Shown here piece after piece: positions 26,552-35,598 of a stretch of DNA of 57,484 bases (positions are counted from its first letter, which is position 1; each line of letters begins with the position of its first letter). The translations under genes and the position numbers were made by a program. Location: NCBI GenBank assembly GCA_003566455.1, contig PXDF01000145.1, forward strand, positions 1-57,484. The letters are read 5' to 3'. Origin of the DNA: Desulfonatronovibrio sp. GTDB taxonomy: Bacteria > Desulfobacterota > Desulfovibrionia > Desulfovibrionales > Desulfonatronovibrionaceae. Below the pieces are notes generated by a model. The model did not search any database, was not told the origin of the DNA, and worked only from the letters and a program-made list of their open reading frames with translations.

Positions 26552-28381
26552 TTATGCCTCTCTGGTTTCTGGGCTGATTATCTTTCCTCCGCCGTATCCG
26601 CGATCTCCTGGAGGCAATTCCACAATTTTGGTTGACGGCTCATATTTGAGTTCAGGCAATTCACCGCCTTGCTTCCAGTAGGCCAGAGTTCTAACCAGCC
26701 AGTCCCGGTCATTTCTTTCCGGATAGTCTTCCCTGGCGTGTGATCCTCTGCTTTCCTTTCTCTCCAGTGCCCCGTAGGCAACACAAAGGGCCAGCCTGAC
26801 CATGCCGGGCAGGCGCAGGGCCATGGCCATTTCTGGATTGGCTCCAAGACCGTTGGATTTTAACTTTAAATTCAGGGCCCGCTCATGAATCTCCCTGAGC
26901 TTGTCCACGGCCAGGCCGAGGTCATTTTCATTGCGGAATATCCCGACATAGTCCATAAGCACGTCCTGCATGGAGTCCCGAACAGCGTATACTTCTTCTC
27001 TGCCCTGCCCGGAAATGAGATTTTTGATTCTTTCCTGTTGATTCTTAAGGGCGGAATCGACTGTGCCTGTATCAAAGCCGGTCTCTTCTCCCTTGAGGAA
27101 TTCAACGATCTTTTCCCCCACGATCATGCCGGCCACGACAGTCTCAGCCAGAGAGTTGCCGCCAAGTCGGTTGAACCCGTGCATGTCCCAGCAGGCTGCT
27201 TCTCCGGCTGAAAAAAGTCCTTTAAGTCCGTAGGCAGCCCCGTCTTTGTTGGTCCTGACCCCGCCCATGCTGTAGTGCTGGGTGGGCCTGACTGGAATAA
27301 GTTCATTGATGTGGTTTATGCCCAGGAAATTATTGCATATTTCATAAACTTCCCGCAGCTTGGTGGTTATATGCTGTTCACCCAGGTGTCTGATGTCCAG
27401 CCAGAGATGATCACCATAGGGGCTTTTCACTCCCAGGTTTTTTCTCATATGATCGGTCATGCGCCTGGAAACAACATCTCTGGAAGCCAGCTCGGCCTTT
27501 TGGGGCTCGTATATGTGCATGAACCTCTCCTGGTTGACGTCCAGCAAGGTTCCGCCGTCTCCCCGGCAGCCCTCGGTGACCAGAATGTCCGTGGGCACGA
27601 TGCCGGTGGGATGAAACTGGACCGCCTCCATATTGCCCAGAGGTACAACTCCGGTATCCAGGGCGATGATCAGCCCTCCGCCTTCATTGATGACAGCGTT
27701 GGTGGAAGCCCGGTAGATGCGTCCGAAACCGCCGGTGGCGATCAAGGTGGCCTTGGCAAGGTAGGCCCTGAGTTCCCCGGTTTTAAGGCATCTGACCACC
27801 GCGCCCATGCACTTTTCACTGTCATGAATCAGGCTTATGGCCTCGGTCCGGTCATGGACCTTGACTCCACTTTTTACAGCCACGTTGTCCAGGGTATAAA
27901 GCATGGCATGGCCTGTGCCGTCGGAACAATAACAAGCTCTCCATTTGGCCGTGCCCCCGAAATCCCTGGCTGTGATCAGGCCTTCCCGGTCTCTTTTCTC
28001 TTCCTTATCGAATTTTTCCCCGCCCTTGAAGTAGCAGGATTTTCCAGCAACCACCCTGTTCCAGGGAACTCCCCAGTATGCCATCTGACGTATGGCTATG
28101 GGCGCGTTGTCAGCGAACATTCTTGCCACTTCCTGGTCACAGCCCCAGTCGGATCCCTTGACAGTGTCCTGAAAGTGAACATCAGGACAGTCTCCCTCGC
28201 CCTTGATGCAATTGCCAAGGCCGGCCTGCATGCCTCCCTGGGCCGCGGAAGAGTGAGAACGCCTGGGAGGGACAAGGCTTAAACAGATGGCGTCGAAACC
28301 GGCCTGGGCGGCTTCAATGGCCACTCTTTCTCCGGCCAGTCCAGACCCGATACAAAGTAAATCAGCATAAATTATCTGCAT
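26552..28381 (-). CDS. frdA: Fumarate reductase flavoprotein subunit
   Basis: A 609-residue FAD subunit. GSGLAGERVA is the dinucleotide loop. RSHSSAAQGGMQAG contains the histidine that carries covalent FAD in this family. HFQDTVKGSDWGCDQEVARM closely follows the Wolinella (B-type) enzyme. Active-site segments include FHPTGIVP, GCRGDGG and RPTQHYSMGG. It reduces fumarate to succinate with menaquinol, or the reverse. It is the middle gene of frdCAB. Confidence 0.95.
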   Translation of the reverse strand: MQIIYADLLCIGSGLAGERVAIEAAQAGFDAICLSLVPPRRSHSSAAQGGMQAGLGNCIKGEGDCPDVHFQDTVKGSDWGCDQEVARMFADNAPIAIRQMAYWGVPWNRVVAGKSCYFKGGEKFDKEEKRDREGLITARDFGGTAKWRACYCSDGTGHAMLYTLDNVAVKSGVKVHDRTEAISLIHDSEKCMGAVVRCLKTGELRAYLAKATLIATGGFGRIYRASTNAVINEGGGLIIALDTGVVPLGNMEAVQFHPTGIVPTDILVTEGCRGDGGTLLDVNQERFMHIYEPQKAELASRDVVSRRMTDHMRKNLGVKSPYGDHLWLDIRHLGEQHITTKLREVYEICNNFLGINHINELIPVRPTQHYSMGGVRTNKDGAAYGLKGLFSAGEAACWDMHGFNRLGGNSLAETVVAGMIVGEKIVEFLKGEETGFDTGTVDSALKNQQERIKNLISGQGREEVYAVRDSMQDVLMDYVGIFRNENDLGLAVDKLREIHERALNLKLKSNGLGANPEMAMALRLPGMVRLALCVAYGALERKESRGSHAREDYPERNDRDWLVRTLAYWKQGGELPELKYEPSTKIVELPPGDRGYGGGKIISPETREA

Positions 28382-28396
28382 GTGCGCGCTCCAGAT

Positions 28397-29047
28397 TTAT
28401 ATTTTTACAAACAGAAAACGAATCAAGGTCACAAGTCCCAGAAGAATAAAAAAGCCGGTAAGGTAGAACTCGAACCTTTTAGCCTTTTTTCTGGCCTGGC
28501 TCTTGATAAAGCCCCATTTTACACCCAGCCGGTACCAGCCGATACCAACATGCAGCTCCACCATGGGCAAAAGGATCAGATAAAAAGTAAGCCAGAAACC
28601 GCTTTGGATTCTGGCCGCGCTTTTATCCGCGCTAAAGGGCATGTCAGTGAGAACCACCCACATATGAATGGCTCCCATAATCAGGATAATCATTGCTGAA
28701 ACAATCTGAACCACCCACAGCCAGGTATCCCTGTGTGCCAGCATTTTACTTTGAAACCAGAGCTTTTTCTGCTGTTCGGAACTGAATGGAATTTTTCTGG
28801 CAGCCAGTATGAAGTGAGTCAGAAAGATCAGAAATATAATCGGTCCACCCACCTGGGCCAGATAATAATGCTCGAAAAAATGGGCCAAAGCGTTGAAGGC
28901 CCTGGTTCCAAAGATAATACTGGCTACAAAAAGGGCATGCAGATACATGAACAATACCAGGCAGATCCCTGTTAACATCTGCAGCCAGTCCAGATAAGCG
29001 GCCTGCCTGGAAACGGCCGGCACGTAAACTGTACTGTCAATTCGCAT
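28397..29047 (-). CDS. frdC: Fumarate reductase dihaem cytochrome b subunit
   Basis: A 216-residue membrane protein with five hydrophobic helices and histidines in each likely position for two haem b groups (MYLHALF, HFFEHYY, FLTHFIL, GAIHMW, VELHVGIGWYR). In the Wolinella enzyme the equivalent E-x-H in the last helices joins a transmembrane proton path; here it reads ELH. It anchors FrdAB and oxidises menaquinol. First gene of the operon; AGGAGG before the ATG. Confidence 0.93.
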   Translation of the reverse strand: MRIDSTVYVPAVSRQAAYLDWLQMLTGICLVLFMYLHALFVASIIFGTRAFNALAHFFEHYYLAQVGGPIIFLIFLTHFILAARKIPFSSEQQKKLWFQSKMLAHRDTWLWVVQIVSAMIILIMGAIHMWVVLTDMPFSADKSAARIQSGFWLTFYLILLPMVELHVGIGWYRLGVKWGFIKSQARKKAKRFEFYLTGFFILLGLVTLIRFLFVKI

Positions 29048-29162
29048 ATTTCCTCCTGTTATATTACTGAAAATCTGTTGTAAAATTCGACTATTCCAAG
29101 CTTGCTGAGGATTTTCTGTTTTCCATGCTTTTTCATTTGCCCCGCTTTCGGCCGGTGGCTTT

Positions 29163-29939
29163 CTAATCCCCTGGCTGAAACTTGAGCTCCAGTCCTATGG
29201 GACAGTGATCAGAACCCATGACATGAGGTTCTATCCATGAGCGGACAACATTATTCTTCAACTCTTCAGAAACAAAAAAATAATCTATGCGCCATCCGGC
29301 ATTCCTTGATCTGGCTCCAAATCTGTAAGTCCACCAGGTGTACTGATCCGGCTCCTGGCTGAACATCCGGAAAGTGTCAATATATCCGTGGCTGATGAAC
29401 TTATCCAGCCATTGCCTTTCTATGGGCAGAAAACCTGATCGGTCTTCATTGGCTTTGGGATTTTTCAGATCGATTTCCTTGTGCGCGGTGTTGAAGTCGC
29501 CGCAGACCACTATGGGTTTTTTCCCCCTGAGTTCTTGAGCGTATTCAAGAAAAGAATCATAGAAATCCAGCTTGAACTGAAGACGCTCATGACTCATCTG
29601 GCCATTGGGAAAATAGACATTGAAAAGAAAAAAAGCATCATATTCCAGGAGAATCAGTCTGCCTTCGCCCTGAAACCTTTCATCGGGCAGACTTCTGGAT
29701 ATGCTCTGAGGCTCGATTCTGTAAAACGCGGCCACTCCGGAATAACCCTGTTTGAGCCTGGATGGATTCCAGAATACCTGGTAGCCATGAACAATCCTGT
29801 CTTCCTGGTTCAATTGGTCCGGCCTGGTCTTGATTTCCTGAAGGCAGACCACATCTGAATCAGCCTGCTGGAACCAATCCCAGAAACCCTTGCCCACAAC
29901 CGCGCGAAAACCGTTGACGTTCCATGAATGAATAATCAT
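29163..29939 (-). CDS. xth: Exodeoxyribonuclease III / AP endonuclease
   Basis: A 258-residue DNA-repair nuclease of the endonuclease/exonuclease/phosphatase fold. Catalytic segments are SWNVNGFRA, CLQEIKT (metal-binding glutamate), VCGDFNTAHKEID (Asp-Asn pair), WRIDYFF and the closing GSDHCPI with the catalytic histidine. It cuts at abasic sites and trims 3' ends. It overlaps the metallophosphoesterase gene by one base (TAATG-type junction), so the two form an operon. Confidence 0.95.
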   Translation of the reverse strand: MIIHSWNVNGFRAVVGKGFWDWFQQADSDVVCLQEIKTRPDQLNQEDRIVHGYQVFWNPSRLKQGYSGVAAFYRIEPQSISRSLPDERFQGEGRLILLEYDAFFLFNVYFPNGQMSHERLQFKLDFYDSFLEYAQELRGKKPIVVCGDFNTAHKEIDLKNPKANEDRSGFLPIERQWLDKFISHGYIDTFRMFSQEPDQYTWWTYRFGARSRNAGWRIDYFFVSEELKNNVVRSWIEPHVMGSDHCPIGLELKFQPGD

Positions 29940-30604
29940 TATGCCTGCCTCAGTTGGGCATCCAGTTTCTGTCCGTCAAAGCTTATCCTGACGTAACCTC
30001 CTGAAGCAAAAGTTCCCGGGTTGATGACTATGGTTTCACCAAGATGATCAACAGATCTGGCCTCATGAATATGGCCGGTTATACAGACCTCTGGCTGGAT
30101 TTTTTCAATGAAGTTTCTTACGGCCCTGCTGCCGGCGTTGATCCCGGAACTTAAAAGGTCAGTGCTGGTATTGTAGGGTGGAGTGTGGGTCATGAAAATC
30201 AGGTGCCTGACCTGGACGGCCTGGTCCTGGATGCCTTCCAGCCATTGCCGGATCTTGCTTTCTTCAACTTCCGAGGGAGTTTTAAAGGGAGTAGGGGTTG
30301 AGTATCCAAGCCCCAGGAGATGGACATCCGGGGAGAGCCTGATCAGCCTGTTGTGAACGTTAGAACCTGATTCATCCAGGTATTTCTCAACATCCCTGGT
30401 GTCCATGTTTCCAATCTGGGCGAATACATTTTCATTCAGGGCCTTGATTTCATTTATTATGGCGGCTGCTCCGGCTTTGCCGCCCACATTGGTCAGGTCA
30501 CCGGAAATCAGCACCCCCGAAGCTTTTGAGATATCCCTGATTTTATGAATATTGTTTATTCTTTCATGCACGTCGCCAAATGCTATCCAGAAGTTTTCCG
30601 CCAT
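29939..30604 (-). CDS. Calcineurin-like metallophosphoesterase
   Basis: A 221-residue phosphoesterase. Metal-binding motifs are FGDVHERIN (GDxH), SGDLTNVGG (GDxx), GNMDTR (GNxD), and the pair of histidines in FMTHTPPYN and CITGHIHEAR. Such enzymes hydrolyse phosphomono- or diesters; the substrate is unknown. It is translated just ahead of xth, so a repair or nucleotide-related role is possible but only inferred. Confidence 0.87.
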   Translation of the reverse strand: MAENFWIAFGDVHERINNIHKIRDISKASGVLISGDLTNVGGKAGAAAIINEIKALNENVFAQIGNMDTRDVEKYLDESGSNVHNRLIRLSPDVHLLGLGYSTPTPFKTPSEVEESKIRQWLEGIQDQAVQVRHLIFMTHTPPYNTSTDLLSSGINAGSRAVRNFIEKIQPEVCITGHIHEARSVDHLGETIVINPGTFASGGYVRISFDGQKLDAQLRQA

Positions 30605-30742
30605 TTTCCAGGTCCTGTAATTTCTGTTAAATATTTATGGATAATGCCTGATGAGCTTTTTCCCCACTGCCGCGATCAAGCGCGCGTGCATGCCCATCCG
30701 GCGCCTCACCGGTTTTCAATCTTTTTGTTTTTCAAGCAGTTT

Positions 30743-33034
30743 TTACAGTTTATAAACCCTGATCCCGGCCTGGGTATCCTCAACCCTGAATCCCATATCC
30801 AGAATATTCTGCCTGAGTCTGTCAGCCAGGGAGTAGTCTTTAGCTTTTCTGGCCTGGGTCCTCTTCTCAAGAAGTTCGGACAGGTCAGAAGGGTATTCTT
30901 TTGTGGCCACAGGCAGATTGTCCCAGTCCAGAATGCCCAGAACATGGTCCACTATCTTAAGGGAACGCAGACATTCCTGGGCCTGGTCCTCTCCCATGTT
31001 CCCTTCATCTGCCAGCTTGCGCGTCTTTTTACAGAACGAGAAAAGGTCTGGCCAGAATTTATATATGGACAGGTCGTCTTCAATGCATTTGTCCAGGTTA
31101 TGGCGCAGTTTATGGCAAAGATCTTCAATTTCATCCTTAGCGGTATCCGCCTGACCCAATTCACTTACAATCAAATGGGAGTATAGATCCTGAATCCTGT
31201 GCCAGTTTTTCAGCCACATGGAAAGATTTTTTTCAGAGAATAAAAGTGTCTTGTGGTATGAACCGGACAGAAGCCAGAGGCGGAGAGGGTGAAAGCCGGC
31301 ATATTCTTCAGCCATTGCCCTGAGGCCGGGCATTGTTTCTCTTCCAGGCTCAGGCTTAACGGACTGGGCCGTTATCCAGCACTGCGGGACAAGCTCCATG
31401 GCTCCTTTCCATATACTTCTGAGGTTGTCCAGATGCGGGAAAAAGTGAGTTTCTCCCGCGAAAACCAGGTCCAGGTGTTTTTCAGTTACCGCGGCAGCCA
31501 TCTGTAAATACCAGGAAGGCCTGACATTTCCCCATCTGGTTTTAAGAACATTATCCTCTTTGAGGTCTTTGAGGCTGCCCCTTTTAAGGAGAGTGAAATC
31601 CCTGGGGCTGTCTTTGACATAATCTTCCAGGTCAACGGTTTTTCCGGCAATTATGGTCGCAGGGTCGATTCCAGCCAGTTTGCCATAGTCGCTGTCCCTG
31701 CCTACGTCAAAGTAGACTGATCTAAGCTTTTCATAGGCCAGTCCCCTGGACAGGAGCTTTGTGCAAACCTGGATGCTTTCATCAAGATGCTGGGATGCAG
31801 GTATAAATCTGAAATTTTTGCTGAGGTTCATTCTGTGTGACAAGGCTTCAAGCCCTGAGATTGATTGCCGGCTGAAATCCTTTAAACTCAGACTTTCCGC
31901 TCTCACCACGTCCAGGGTCCGGTCGTCATAGTCAGCCACAGCCACCATTGGCCTGGGATCATCACCCCTACTGCTCAGATATCGGTTAACCACATCCAAA
32001 AAAACCGCTCTTCTCCAGAAATCAGGATCATCAAGAAAATCAGTCCTTGGGCCAATGGTGAATAAGACCGGTCTCTTGGCAGTGCTTTGCAGAGAAATCT
32101 GTTTTCTGGTTTTCAGATCAAAAAGTCTGATGCCATCCATTTCCGGAATGCTGAACAGTGCGGTACTTAAATATCTTTCACCACTGTCAGGAAAGATGGT
32201 CACAATGATTCCGGACTCAACCTCTTTGGCCAGGCGAAAGGTAGCGGCCATGGCCGCTCCGGAGCTCATGCCCACAAAAAGTCCTTCCTTGCGGGCCAGT
32301 TCCCGGCACATGAAAAAGGCCTCCTCATCCTTGACATGGACAACCGTATCCAGGGCTTTCTTATCGTAAATGCCCGGAGGATATGATTCCTGCATATTCT
32401 TAAGCCCCTGAATTTTGTGTCCGGGATAGGGCTCGATCCCAATGCACCGGACATGGGGAGCTGTTTCGCGCATCTTTCTGGTAATGCCCATGATGGTGCC
32501 GGTGGTGCCCAGGCAGGCGGTGATATGGGTGACCCGGCCTTGAGTCTCCTCCCATATTTCAGGGCCGGTTGTCTGGTAATGCGCTTCAATGCTGGCAGGA
32601 TTGTTGAACTGATCCATGAGTACGTATTTGTCCGGTTCTTCCCTGGCCATACGGTAAGCTTCTTCAATGGCCCCGTCAGTGCTCAGGTGACCCGGAGTAA
32701 GAATTATCTCAGCGCCATAGGCCTTCATGATTTTTTTTCTTTCTTCAGAAGCAGCGGAAGACATGAGAAGTTTTATGGGGTAACCCTTGACCGCGCAGAC
32801 CATGGCCAGGCCAATGCCGGTGTTGCCTGAGGTGGCCTCTATGACGGTCTTTCCGGGTCCAAGATCTCCCATTGCCTCAGCCCTTTTAATCATTGCCAGA
32901 GCGACCCTGTCTTTGACTGAACCTCCTGGGTTTTTCATTTCAAGCTTGGCAAATATTCTGACTTTGGGGTTGGGAGAAATATTTCTGATTTCCACCAGAG
33001 GGGTTTTTCCAATGAAGGAAAGAAGATCTTTCAT
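30743..33034 (-). CDS. Cysteine synthase fused to degenerate cysteinyl-tRNA synthetase
   Basis: A 763-residue two-part protein. Residues 1-310 are a complete PLP-dependent cysteine synthase: NPGGSVKDR with the PLP lysine, TSGNTGIGLA and GTTGTIMG. Residues about 315-763 follow cysteinyl-tRNA synthetase (DLKTRKQ, FLDVVNRYLSSRG, RPSWYLQMA, LLSGSYHKTLLFSEKNL, and a C-terminal helical part ending RLRQNILDMGF). However, the HIGH motif is absent, the first zinc cysteine of CGxTVYD is isoleucine (IGPRTDF), the CSAM cysteine is methionine, and no KMSKS is present. The second part is therefore unlikely to aminoacylate tRNA. It may bind tRNA, cysteine or an enzyme partner. The synthase part makes cysteine from an activated serine and sulfide. 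Confidence 0.88.
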   Translation of the reverse strand: MKDLLSFIGKTPLVEIRNISPNPKVRIFAKLEMKNPGGSVKDRVALAMIKRAEAMGDLGPGKTVIEATSGNTGIGLAMVCAVKGYPIKLLMSSAASEERKKIMKAYGAEIILTPGHLSTDGAIEEAYRMAREEPDKYVLMDQFNNPASIEAHYQTTGPEIWEETQGRVTHITACLGTTGTIMGITRKMRETAPHVRCIGIEPYPGHKIQGLKNMQESYPPGIYDKKALDTVVHVKDEEAFFMCRELARKEGLFVGMSSGAAMAATFRLAKEVESGIIVTIFPDSGERYLSTALFSIPEMDGIRLFDLKTRKQISLQSTAKRPVLFTIGPRTDFLDDPDFWRRAVFLDVVNRYLSSRGDDPRPMVAVADYDDRTLDVVRAESLSLKDFSRQSISGLEALSHRMNLSKNFRFIPASQHLDESIQVCTKLLSRGLAYEKLRSVYFDVGRDSDYGKLAGIDPATIIAGKTVDLEDYVKDSPRDFTLLKRGSLKDLKEDNVLKTRWGNVRPSWYLQMAAAVTEKHLDLVFAGETHFFPHLDNLRSIWKGAMELVPQCWITAQSVKPEPGRETMPGLRAMAEEYAGFHPLRLWLLSGSYHKTLLFSEKNLSMWLKNWHRIQDLYSHLIVSELGQADTAKDEIEDLCHKLRHNLDKCIEDDLSIYKFWPDLFSFCKKTRKLADEGNMGEDQAQECLRSLKIVDHVLGILDWDNLPVATKEYPSDLSELLEKRTQARKAKDYSLADRLRQNILDMGFRVEDTQAGIRVYKL

Positions 33035-33169
33035 TATTGCGCCGTTATTGAAACCGGTTCAGCTTTCCAGAAATTGTTGAACAAAAAAAACAAACAAATT
33101 AGATAAATCCGGATGAGTTTCTTTTCAAGTAAAAAAACACCGGGTAATTTTCAATAGATCGGCCAGCAC

Positions 33170-34048
33170 ATGCTTAATCAGAGAAAAGCATATCTTTACG
33201 CTTTGCTCACTGTGGCCATCTGGTCAACAGTGGCTTCGGCCTTTAAAATATCCCTGCGTTACCTGGATCATGTGCAGCTTCTTTTCTATTCCTGTCTCAC
33301 ATCAACCCTGGTCCTGGGAATTCTATGCCTGTATTTTTTCGGTCCCGGATTCTGGAGGATGATATCTCCGGGCAACATCAAATCTTCACTGCTGCTGGGC
33401 TTTTTAAATCCGTTTCTCTATTATCTGATCCTGTTCAAGGCCTATGATCTTCTGCCGGCCCAGGAGGCTCAACCCTTGAACTACACATGGGGCATCACTC
33501 TGGCATTGCTGTCCATCCCTCTTCTGAAACAAAAAATCACAGGAGGACAGATCCTGGCCATTATCATCAGCTACAGCGGCACTCTGGTCATCTCTACCAG
33601 GGGCAACATACTTGGTCTGGAATTTTCCAGCCCCCTGGGAGTGGCCCTGGCCCTGGGCAGCACCATTGTCTGGTCTCTTTACTGGATATACAACACCAAA
33701 GACAGCCTGGAACCGATTCTGAAGCTGTTTTTAAATTTTTGCGCCGGACTCATCTATATTTCCATATTTCTGCCTTTAGTCACGACCTTTGGTTTTGAGG
33801 ACTCGCGGGGGCTTTACGGCGCCATTTACGTGGGTGTTTTTGAAATGGGAATAACCTTTGTCTTCTGGCTTATGGCCCTGAGACTTTCCAGAACAACTGC
33901 CCAGGTCAGCAACCTTATATACCTGTCTCCTTTTCTGTCCCTGGCCTTCATATACCTGCTGGTGGGGGAAACAATATTTTTATCAACCATTATCGGCCTG
34001 ACACTGATCATGACAGGCCTGATCATTCAGAACCAGAGCAGGCAGTAA
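33170..34048 (+). CDS. EamA-family (DMT) transporter
   Basis: A 292-residue inner-membrane protein with about ten hydrophobic helices in two related halves, as in drug/metabolite exporters (EamA). YALLTVAIWSTVASAFKISL opens the first repeat and LGVALALGSTIVWSLYWIYN the second. The substrate is unknown. Divergent from the cysteine synthase fusion, which hints weakly at cysteine or a thiol as substrate, since EamA of E. coli exports cysteine metabolites. Confidence 0.87.
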   Translation: MLNQRKAYLYALLTVAIWSTVASAFKISLRYLDHVQLLFYSCLTSTLVLGILCLYFFGPGFWRMISPGNIKSSLLLGFLNPFLYYLILFKAYDLLPAQEAQPLNYTWGITLALLSIPLLKQKITGGQILAIIISYSGTLVISTRGNILGLEFSSPLGVALALGSTIVWSLYWIYNTKDSLEPILKLFLNFCAGLIYISIFLPLVTTFGFEDSRGLYGAIYVGVFEMGITFVFWLMALRLSRTTAQVSNLIYLSPFLSLAFIYLLVGETIFLSTIIGLTLIMTGLIIQNQSRQ

Positions 34049-34296
34049 AGGAGCATGGATCGTGTATTAAGATGCTGGATTGAAGCCGGGATGGTTCATC
34101 AGGGGCTCCAGGACCTTGTCCCTTGTTCCTTTTTTGGCCTTTACTCCGGGGCTTGCCAGGGATATATTAAATAAATTAATTGATTATGGCCCTTGGTTGT
34201 CAGCCGTGGATTATCTGTTCGCCAGCTTTTTGAAAAAATACATTCAATGTTTCGAGGCATCTTAATTATTTGTCACTCTCTGCCAGGAAGGAAAAT

Positions 34297-35598
34297 ATGA
34301 AAAACACCATCATAAACAGTCTCAACAAACGCAGCGCCCTAATAGGAATCATAGGTCTGGGCTATGTGGGTCTGCCCCTGGCCCTGCGTTATCTGGAGGC
34401 GGGTTATCCTGTTCTGGGCCTGGACATCGATCAAAACAAAGTTGACAAACTCATGGCTGGCGAAAGTTATATCCGGCACATTTCTGTCGAGCCCATTGCT
34501 GATGCCCTTCAAGCTGGACGCTTTGAAGCTGTGACTGATTTTTCAAGGTCTGGAGAGGCCGACGCCCTGATTCTTTGTGTACCTACTCCTTTGGACCGTC
34601 ACCGAGAGCCTGACCTGTCCTATGTGATCAATTCTCTGGAAGAGGTCTTGCCTTTTCTGCGTCCAGGGCAGGTGGTTGCCCTGGAATCCACAACCTATCC
34701 AGGCACCACGGATGAGGAGCTTAAGCCCCGAATTGAAAAGACGGGATTAAAAGTGGGCAGGGATGTTTTTCTGGTTTATTCCCCTGAAAGGGAAGATCCG
34801 GGTAATCCCAGTTTTAACACCCGGACCATTCCCAAAGTCTGCGGAGGCTTTACCCCTGAGTGCCTCGAAGTGGGCAAGGCCCTTTACGGGCAGGTTATTG
34901 ACCAGGTGGTGCCGGTATCATCCACCAGGGCCGCAGAAGCGGTCAAGCTCATGGAAAACATTTTCCGCAGCGTCAATATCGCTCTGGTAAATGAACTCAA
35001 GACGGCTTTCATGAAAATGGACATTGATATTTTCGAGGTCATCAGGGCCGCCTCTACAAAACCATTCGGCTACATGCCTTTTTATCCAGGTCCAGGCCTG
35101 GGCGGACACTGCATTCCCATTGACCCCTTTTATCTGACCTGGAAGGCTCGGGAATATGATGTGGTCACCAGATTTATTGAACTGGCCGGGGAGATAAATA
35201 CGTCCATGCCGTATTTTGTTGTCCAGCGCGCGGCAGAAGTGCTCAATGAACATGAAAAGGCCCTGAAAAATTCCAGAATACTTCTTCTGGGCCTGGCTTA
35301 CAAGGCGGAAGTGGACGATGACCGGGAATCGCCCACATACCGGATTATGGAACTGCTGGAAAGAAAGGGGGCCATAACCCGATACAATGATCCTTTTGTT
35401 CCGGAGATAAGGCCATCCAGAGAATTTTCCCATTTTGCCGGTCGTAAGTCCAGCCCTGTTACAGGAGGTTACGATCTGGTCATCCTTTGCACGGCTCATC
35501 CGCAATACAGGGAACTCAACCCTGCCGGGCTGAACGTCCCGATCCTGGATACAAGGGGATTCTTCCCGGATCTGGCAGGGGTAGTCTACAGGGCTTAG
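34297..35598 (+). CDS. Nucleotide-sugar dehydrogenase (UDP-HexNAc 6-dehydrogenase type)
   Basis: A 433-residue NAD-dependent enzyme oxidising C6 of a UDP-sugar to a uronic acid. [20 protein letters not shown] is the dinucleotide fold at residues 18-37; catalytic segments are [25 protein letters not shown] and [14 protein letters not shown] with the active-site cysteine. The latter resembles WbpA/TviB-type dehydrogenases of UDP-N-acetylhexosamines. No other polysaccharide genes flank it, so its pathway lies elsewhere. GGAAGGA precedes ATG 34297. Confidence 0.88.

Follow-up and report, generated by a model that had tools for sequence, protein, structure and literature searches.

A CysM-type cysteine synthase fused to a cysteinyl-tRNA synthetase-like half that has lost charging motifs and kept anticodon-reading residues

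HisZ is a silent synthetase paralogue that controls HisG, the maker of its amino acid (PMC9734150, PMC9437257). MshC and the Desulfobacterales CysRS* are paralogues of cysteinyl-tRNA synthetase (CysRS, or CysS) with a new role, and both retain cysteine chemistry (PMC9437257). In the eukaryotic kinase Gcn2, a HisRS-like domain binds uncharged tRNA (PMC4335047). The protein described here joins a CysM-type cysteine synthase to a CysRS-like half. As with HisZ and HisG, a synthetase paralogue that lacks charging motifs, and is predicted not to aminoacylate, is attached to the cognate amino-acid enzyme while a normal synthetase is encoded alongside. Homology to HisRS, however, is not found; HisZ, a paralogue of the class II enzyme HisRS, forms a subunit of its own, whereas the fusion half belongs to class I, lies in the same chain as its partner and retains the anticodon domain that, to our knowledge, HisZ does not have. 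Because it has a class I CysRS fold, the fusion half is not a HisZ, although by analogy it may work like one. Regulation of the partner has been demonstrated for HisZ, whereas the fusion is known here from sequence and structural models. It shows the reverse of what MshC and CysRS* retain. With Gcn2 it shares a synthetase-like regulatory domain carried by another enzyme; in Gcn2 that domain is of class II and sits on a kinase, whereas here it sits on a biosynthetic enzyme and we infer its sensing of tRNA. No published description of the fusion was found in the open-licence PMC papers searched, which is weak evidence of absence, and the fusion is not among the cases in a review of duplicated synthetases.

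The window, the whole 57,484-nucleotide stretch of Desulfonatronovibrio sp. DNA that was analysed, carries the gene as one unbroken open reading frame on the reverse strand (30743..33034 (-)), with an ATG start and 763 codons for 763 amino acids. Residues 1-295 form the CysM-type cysteine synthase and residues 301-763 a complete CysRS fold. Orthologues from the same genus are 72-79% identical over their full length, and full-length fusions are found in most relatives within the order and beyond it in the phylum; the arrangement is therefore more than chance, and it is a real, conserved and always-fused architecture rather than a local oddity. An AlphaFold model of the 763-residue fusion has a mean pLDDT of 88.6 and a pTM of 0.74, a value that leaves the modelled placement of the synthase half relative to the CysRS-like half uncertain.

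The fusion is carried by 123 of 296 Desulfobacterota genomes in an even draw, each at least 90% complete, a count that includes a few partial genes (e.g. G071, G121, G302). A signature scan of genome contigs gave 497 loci, of which 80 were examined; the named ones belong to the Desulfovibrionales, Desulfobacterales and kin, and the one nearest to the window protein is L034 (74% in the C half). The CysRS-like half is fused in 79 of 79 complete reading frames from the named loci, the exception to the fused set being L086, whose reading frame begins at a contig edge. Matches to the C domain in 148 genomes fell within reading frames of at least 704 amino acids in 61 of 61 cases, one per genome, and no stand-alone CysRS-like half was found among the named loci or these 148 genomes. 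A plasmid search gave matches below 60% identity, and the annotated ones among the matches listed were ordinary cysS genes. The loci share no conserved neighbour: even the commonest neighbouring gene is found at 18 of about 79, and there is no obvious operon partner. The sulfide-rich setting on which the original prediction had drawn is thus circumstantial, as the neighbouring genes are not conserved across the loci examined. In the window itself, genes for a metallophosphoesterase, an exonuclease III-like protein and the cytochrome and flavoprotein subunits of fumarate reductase lie downstream of the fusion (26552-30604 (-)), and a handful of related loci show a similar arrangement, which is not family-wide. 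Positions 30000-34500 gave no Rfam match, and no tRNA gene was found in the window.

The synthase half (residues 1-295, 32150..33034 (-)) matches the Pfam family PALP over residues 6-283 (1.8e-76). It scores over the cut-off of TIGR01136 and below that of TIGR01138 (382 bits against 394). The three elements expected of a fold-type-II PLP enzyme, namely the lysine, the asparagine loop and the phosphate loop, are all found, and the complete set of PLP motifs claimed for this half from the DNA alone is indeed present (K41, TSGNTG, MDQFN and a GTTGT-type phosphate loop). Across 58 members these motifs are invariant apart from conservative changes. Modelled residues 1-296 superimpose on E. coli CysM 2v03 with Z 42.2 and an rmsd of 1.6. 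The half thus shares its fold, its PLP motifs and a CysM-type loop with the CysM enzymes of E. coli and M. tuberculosis, and differs from them in the attached CysRS-like domain and in its frequent occurrence in genomes without a detectable CysE. In that loop K212, invariant in the 58 members, aligns with residue 220 of M. tuberculosis CysM, where E. coli CysM is also ungapped; residue 220 is an arginine important for O-phosphoserine. By its motifs, the synthase half looks like a working cysteine synthase of the CysM type.

The CysRS-like half keeps its fold, as had been predicted. Its catalytically decayed Rossmann domain with a CP insertion (residues 301-584, 31283..32134 (-)) is recognized by the Pfam model tRNA-synt_1e over residues 341-605 (9.8e-23). 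The family profile of this half matches E. coli CysS at 7.6e-55, and the half matches that enzyme's structure (1li5_A) with Z 40.8; modelled residues 301-763 match 1u0b_B, E. coli CysRS bound to tRNA-Cys, with Z 39.8 over 431 residues at an rmsd of 5.5. In its whole fold, its anticodon minidomain and its anticodon readers the half is like CysS. What separates the window protein from CysS, apart from the fusion to CysM and the presence of a separate CysS, is the loss of HIGH, KMSKS and three of the four zinc ligands. Against the NCBIfam cysS profile TIGR00435 it scores 133-134 bits, far below the cut-off of 340, whereas several relatives score above it.

We mapped the active site by alignment with E. 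coli CysS (1LI5) and with the genome's own CysS, for which MAFFT and HMMER were concordant. The HIGH motif is replaced by DPDF (residues 336-339, 32018..32029 (-)). At the KMSKS loop a remnant at residues 565-567 (31334..31342 (-)) is followed by a deletion, and the KMSKS segment as a whole is missing or unrelated. Zinc ligand Cys28 has become Ile327 (32054..32056 (-)), Cys209 has become Met512 (31499..31501 (-)) and Glu238 has become Leu538 (31421..31423 (-)); the sole survivor of the four ligands of active CysS is His234, present as His534 (31433..31435 (-)) and invariant in 86 aligned members. The alignment recovered no shifted HIGH or KMSKS. The losses read from the DNA at the outset, of HIGH, KMSKS and zinc residues, are thereby borne out, with Glu238 as a further loss. 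On these grounds the CysRS-like half of the window protein is predicted to be non-charging. The family has, in addition, signatures of its own, YEKLRS in the CP region (residues 434-439, 31718..31735 (-); invariant or above 90% in 58 members) and NVRPSWYLQ in the old amino-acid pocket (residues 503-511, 31502..31528 (-)).

A change of chemistry, rather than its loss, might be considered. MshC is a CysRS paralogue with a different acceptor (PMC9437257) and CARS makes cysteine persulfides (PMC5660078), so that the half could be another ligase forming an MshC-like cysteine bond or a CARS-like persulfide enzyme. Both of the adenylation motifs, HIGH and KMSKS, are gone from the window protein, however, and persulfide synthesis by CARS requires the PLP-binding KIIK and KMSK lysines of the E. 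coli enzyme (PMC5660078). In the fusion family K73 of KIIK is replaced by Arg in most members and K76 by Ala, Gln, Glu or Ser, while K266 and K269 of KMSK are lost. We regard this explanation as highly improbable, and the persulfide role raised in the original prediction fails because these lysines are not kept.

The end of the protein that reads tRNA has fared differently. The anticodon-binding minidomain is retained (residues 708-763, 30746..30913 (-)) and is matched by CysS_C over residues 713-756 (E 3.3e-4; 21.1 bits, just under the 23-bit cut-off). Its anticodon readers R725, R729, Y734, D738 and D753 (30776..30862 (-)) correspond to E. coli R423, R427, W432, D436 and D451, the last of which is a reader known from the 1U0B work. 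In E. coli CysRS, R427, D436 and W432 recognize G34 of tRNA-Cys and R423 takes part in the water network (PMC12684709), and the window protein has the G34-reading residues. The readers are kept, as R, R/K/Q, aromatic, D and D, in all 105 members that possess the minidomain, a count that tolerates Lys or Gln at E. coli position 427 and any aromatic residue at 432. Of the positions that are invariant in CysS, the minidomain retains 85% and the two Rossmann halves 40-43%. R439 and D436 of the minidomain may have a structural role. In one fusion from a single-contig genome (L189, G071:C1) the anticodon part is unalignable, perhaps through a frameshift or a true loss of the domain.

Comparison with real CysS serves as the control. 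Within the Desulfovibrionales, the catalytic domain shows 72% pairwise identity in real CysS and 49% in the pseudo-CysRS, whereas the minidomain shows 47% and 42%. By these figures the tRNA-reading end is about as constrained as that of a working synthetase, and constraint on the catalytic end has relaxed. Within the fusion protein the minidomain changes more quickly than the remainder (dN/dS about 0.3 for the closest pairs), as it also does in real CysS; the case for retention therefore stands on the specific residues and on the real-CysS control, not on slow change. The original suggestion that a retained but inactive synthetase half acts as a sensor or tRNA-Cys binder is supported by this pattern. 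Our preferred reading, which has about an even chance of being correct, is that the fusion combines a CysM-type synthase with a non-charging regulatory module that would read tRNA-Cys.

Other members of the family preserve earlier stages of decay. Among 106 aligned members, four zinc ligands are kept in 31, three in 18, two in 4 and one in 53. The HIGH-type motif is nowhere present as exact HxGH; HxGN occurs once and HxG in 26, the second histidine being replaced in nearly all relatives. A KMSKS-type motif is recognizable as K[MLI]S in 23 and as K[MLI]SxS in 9. (All of these counts depend on the MAFFT alignments and on thresholds.) The most CysS-like relatives, from other Desulfobacterota, score 409-457 bits against TIGR00435, above its cut-off, with HLGL or HLGN, KMSRS and all four zinc ligands. 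All pseudo-CysRS sequences fall on one side of a branch with 100/100 support that separates them from CysS, and in a 73-row tree a single change suffices to bring the zinc site down to one ligand, and two account for the loss of the KMS motif. We read the second HIGH histidine as lost first, KMSKS next and zinc last, an order that depends on rooting with CysS. The window protein lies at the most decayed end of this series. Zinc ligands, an HLGN, HLGV or HLGL motif and KMSRS are kept at L122 (G062:C7), L174 (G147:C1), L175 (G177:C6), L186 and L190, and in the L122 fusion the synthetase half could, from its motifs, still be active.

Such near-intact members, together with the retention of the anticodon readers throughout, might suggest a scaffold, in which tRNA-Cys, and perhaps CysS, would be placed beside the synthase by the CysRS-like half so that new cysteine is charged locally, and in which early members may themselves have charged tRNA. 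The charging motifs decay family-wide, however, and a separate intact cysS was found in 12 of 12 fusion genomes checked, which rules out local charging as a function common to the family; we consider this explanation unlikely. The search for a separate cysS proposed with the original prediction yielded two intact genes in the window's own genome, on contigs C151 and C56. The gene on C56 (L004, 9549-10616) encodes a divergent intact second CysS with HIGN and KMSKS, which may be a genuine second copy or a contaminant (contamination of the bin, 4.4%).

The pocket raises a different possibility, that of an amino-acid sensor in the strict manner of HisZ, which supplies a histidine pocket for HisG (PMC9734150). 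The relic pocket would bind cysteine or another small ligand and control the synthase allosterically, with no part for tRNA. Nine pocket residues (R341, R342, D347, D368, D370, D371, W508, H534 and N537) are still conserved after the loss of catalysis, and the 31 members with four zinc ligands could bind cysteine. The 53 members with a single ligand, the window's included, nevertheless keep anticodon readers that such a sensor would not need, and we judge it improbable, on a par with the scaffold. The cysteine-binding domain of the original prediction survives in part: with three of the four ligands gone, zinc-based binding of cysteine is unlikely in the window protein, whereas it is possible in members that keep the ligands. 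A third view is that the half is a vestige retained merely for folding, dimerisation or stability, as the faster divergence of its catalytic domain relative to real CysS could suggest. Against this, the half is never lost from the fusion in our sample, the family motifs are strongly conserved, residues 300-700 are under purifying selection (dN/dS about 0.08 for the closest pair) and the tRNA-reading residues are selectively retained; a mere vestige is very unlikely. Taken as a whole, the earlier interpretation is partly supported.

In the tRNA-reading interpretation that we prefer, the CysRS-like half would bind tRNA-Cys through its GCA anticodon without aminoacylation and would inform the synthase of the state of cysteine or of tRNA-Cys. 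Cysteine shortage, for example, would let uncharged tRNA-Cys accumulate and so switch CysM on, whereas the synthase would be held back by charged tRNA or, in zinc-retaining members, by free cysteine. The half would be the cysteine counterpart of HisZ on HisG, but of class I, joined to its partner in a single chain and still reading tRNA. Since the anticodon reader is what survives, tRNA is favoured over the free amino acid as the signal. Control by tRNA usually runs through transcripts or kinases, and we know of no soluble bacterial biosynthetic enzyme for which direct control by the tRNA of its amino acid has been established. A broader proposal, which we hold more tentatively, is that cysteine synthase activity across the phylum is set by tRNA-Cys, through a class I synthetase turned anticodon-reading sensor whose intermediates are preserved. 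The family offers hundreds of natural variants with graded loss of catalysis, and if tRNA is read as proposed, anticodon mutants are predicted to lose control.

The genomic context of cysteine supply bears on what the synthase half would use. No cysE gene (TIGR01172, E up to 1e-25) was detected in 64 of the 123 genomes with the fusion, and 60 of these 64 have the fusion as their sole CysK/CysM enzyme; cysE is present, by comparison, in 57 of the 61 fusion genomes with an additional CysK/M (Fisher p 1.5e-27, uncorrected for relatedness). CysE thus goes hand in hand with CysK, and is dispensable for the fusion. The predicted synthase therefore probably makes cysteine without CysE-derived O-acetylserine. 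A MetX-type acetyltransferase was considered as a substitute for CysE and rejected, being absent from 8 of 11 cysE-less fusion genomes tested (it is present in G009, G018 and G039). O-phosphoserine is the substrate of M. tuberculosis CysM (PMC12910592), and with K212 in the residue-220 column it is, by analogy, an attractive candidate acceptor for the fusion. No canonical SerC, which would bear on O-phosphoserine supply, was found in 12 fusion genomes with the SerC families tested, and serine synthesis in Desulfovibrio has been described as unresolved (PMC7311316). The fusion thus bears on how sulfate reducers without a detectable CysE, and with that serine pathway, make cysteine.

The same observations, the absence of CysE from many fusion genomes, the unresolved serine pathway of Desulfovibrio and the kept anticodon readers, might point to tRNA-dependent synthesis, in which CysM would act on a serine derivative carried by the held tRNA-Cys as a fold-type-II analogue of SepCysS. 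This explanation is speculative and the most improbable of those we considered: no candidate enzyme for loading the tRNA was identified, D. vulgaris reportedly lacks SepCysS (PMC5764234), and the fusion genomes checked contain an intact CysS. Four genomes above 90% complete (G098, G168, G206 and G266) have no CysK/CysM at threshold, and may represent auxotrophs, another route or assembly gaps. In the window's own genome, cysE adjoins a plant-like canonical cysK on contig C4 (31976-38440), so the fusion is not the sole route to cysteine there; a MetX-type acetyltransferase gene lies about 3.5 kb from this cysE-cysK pair.
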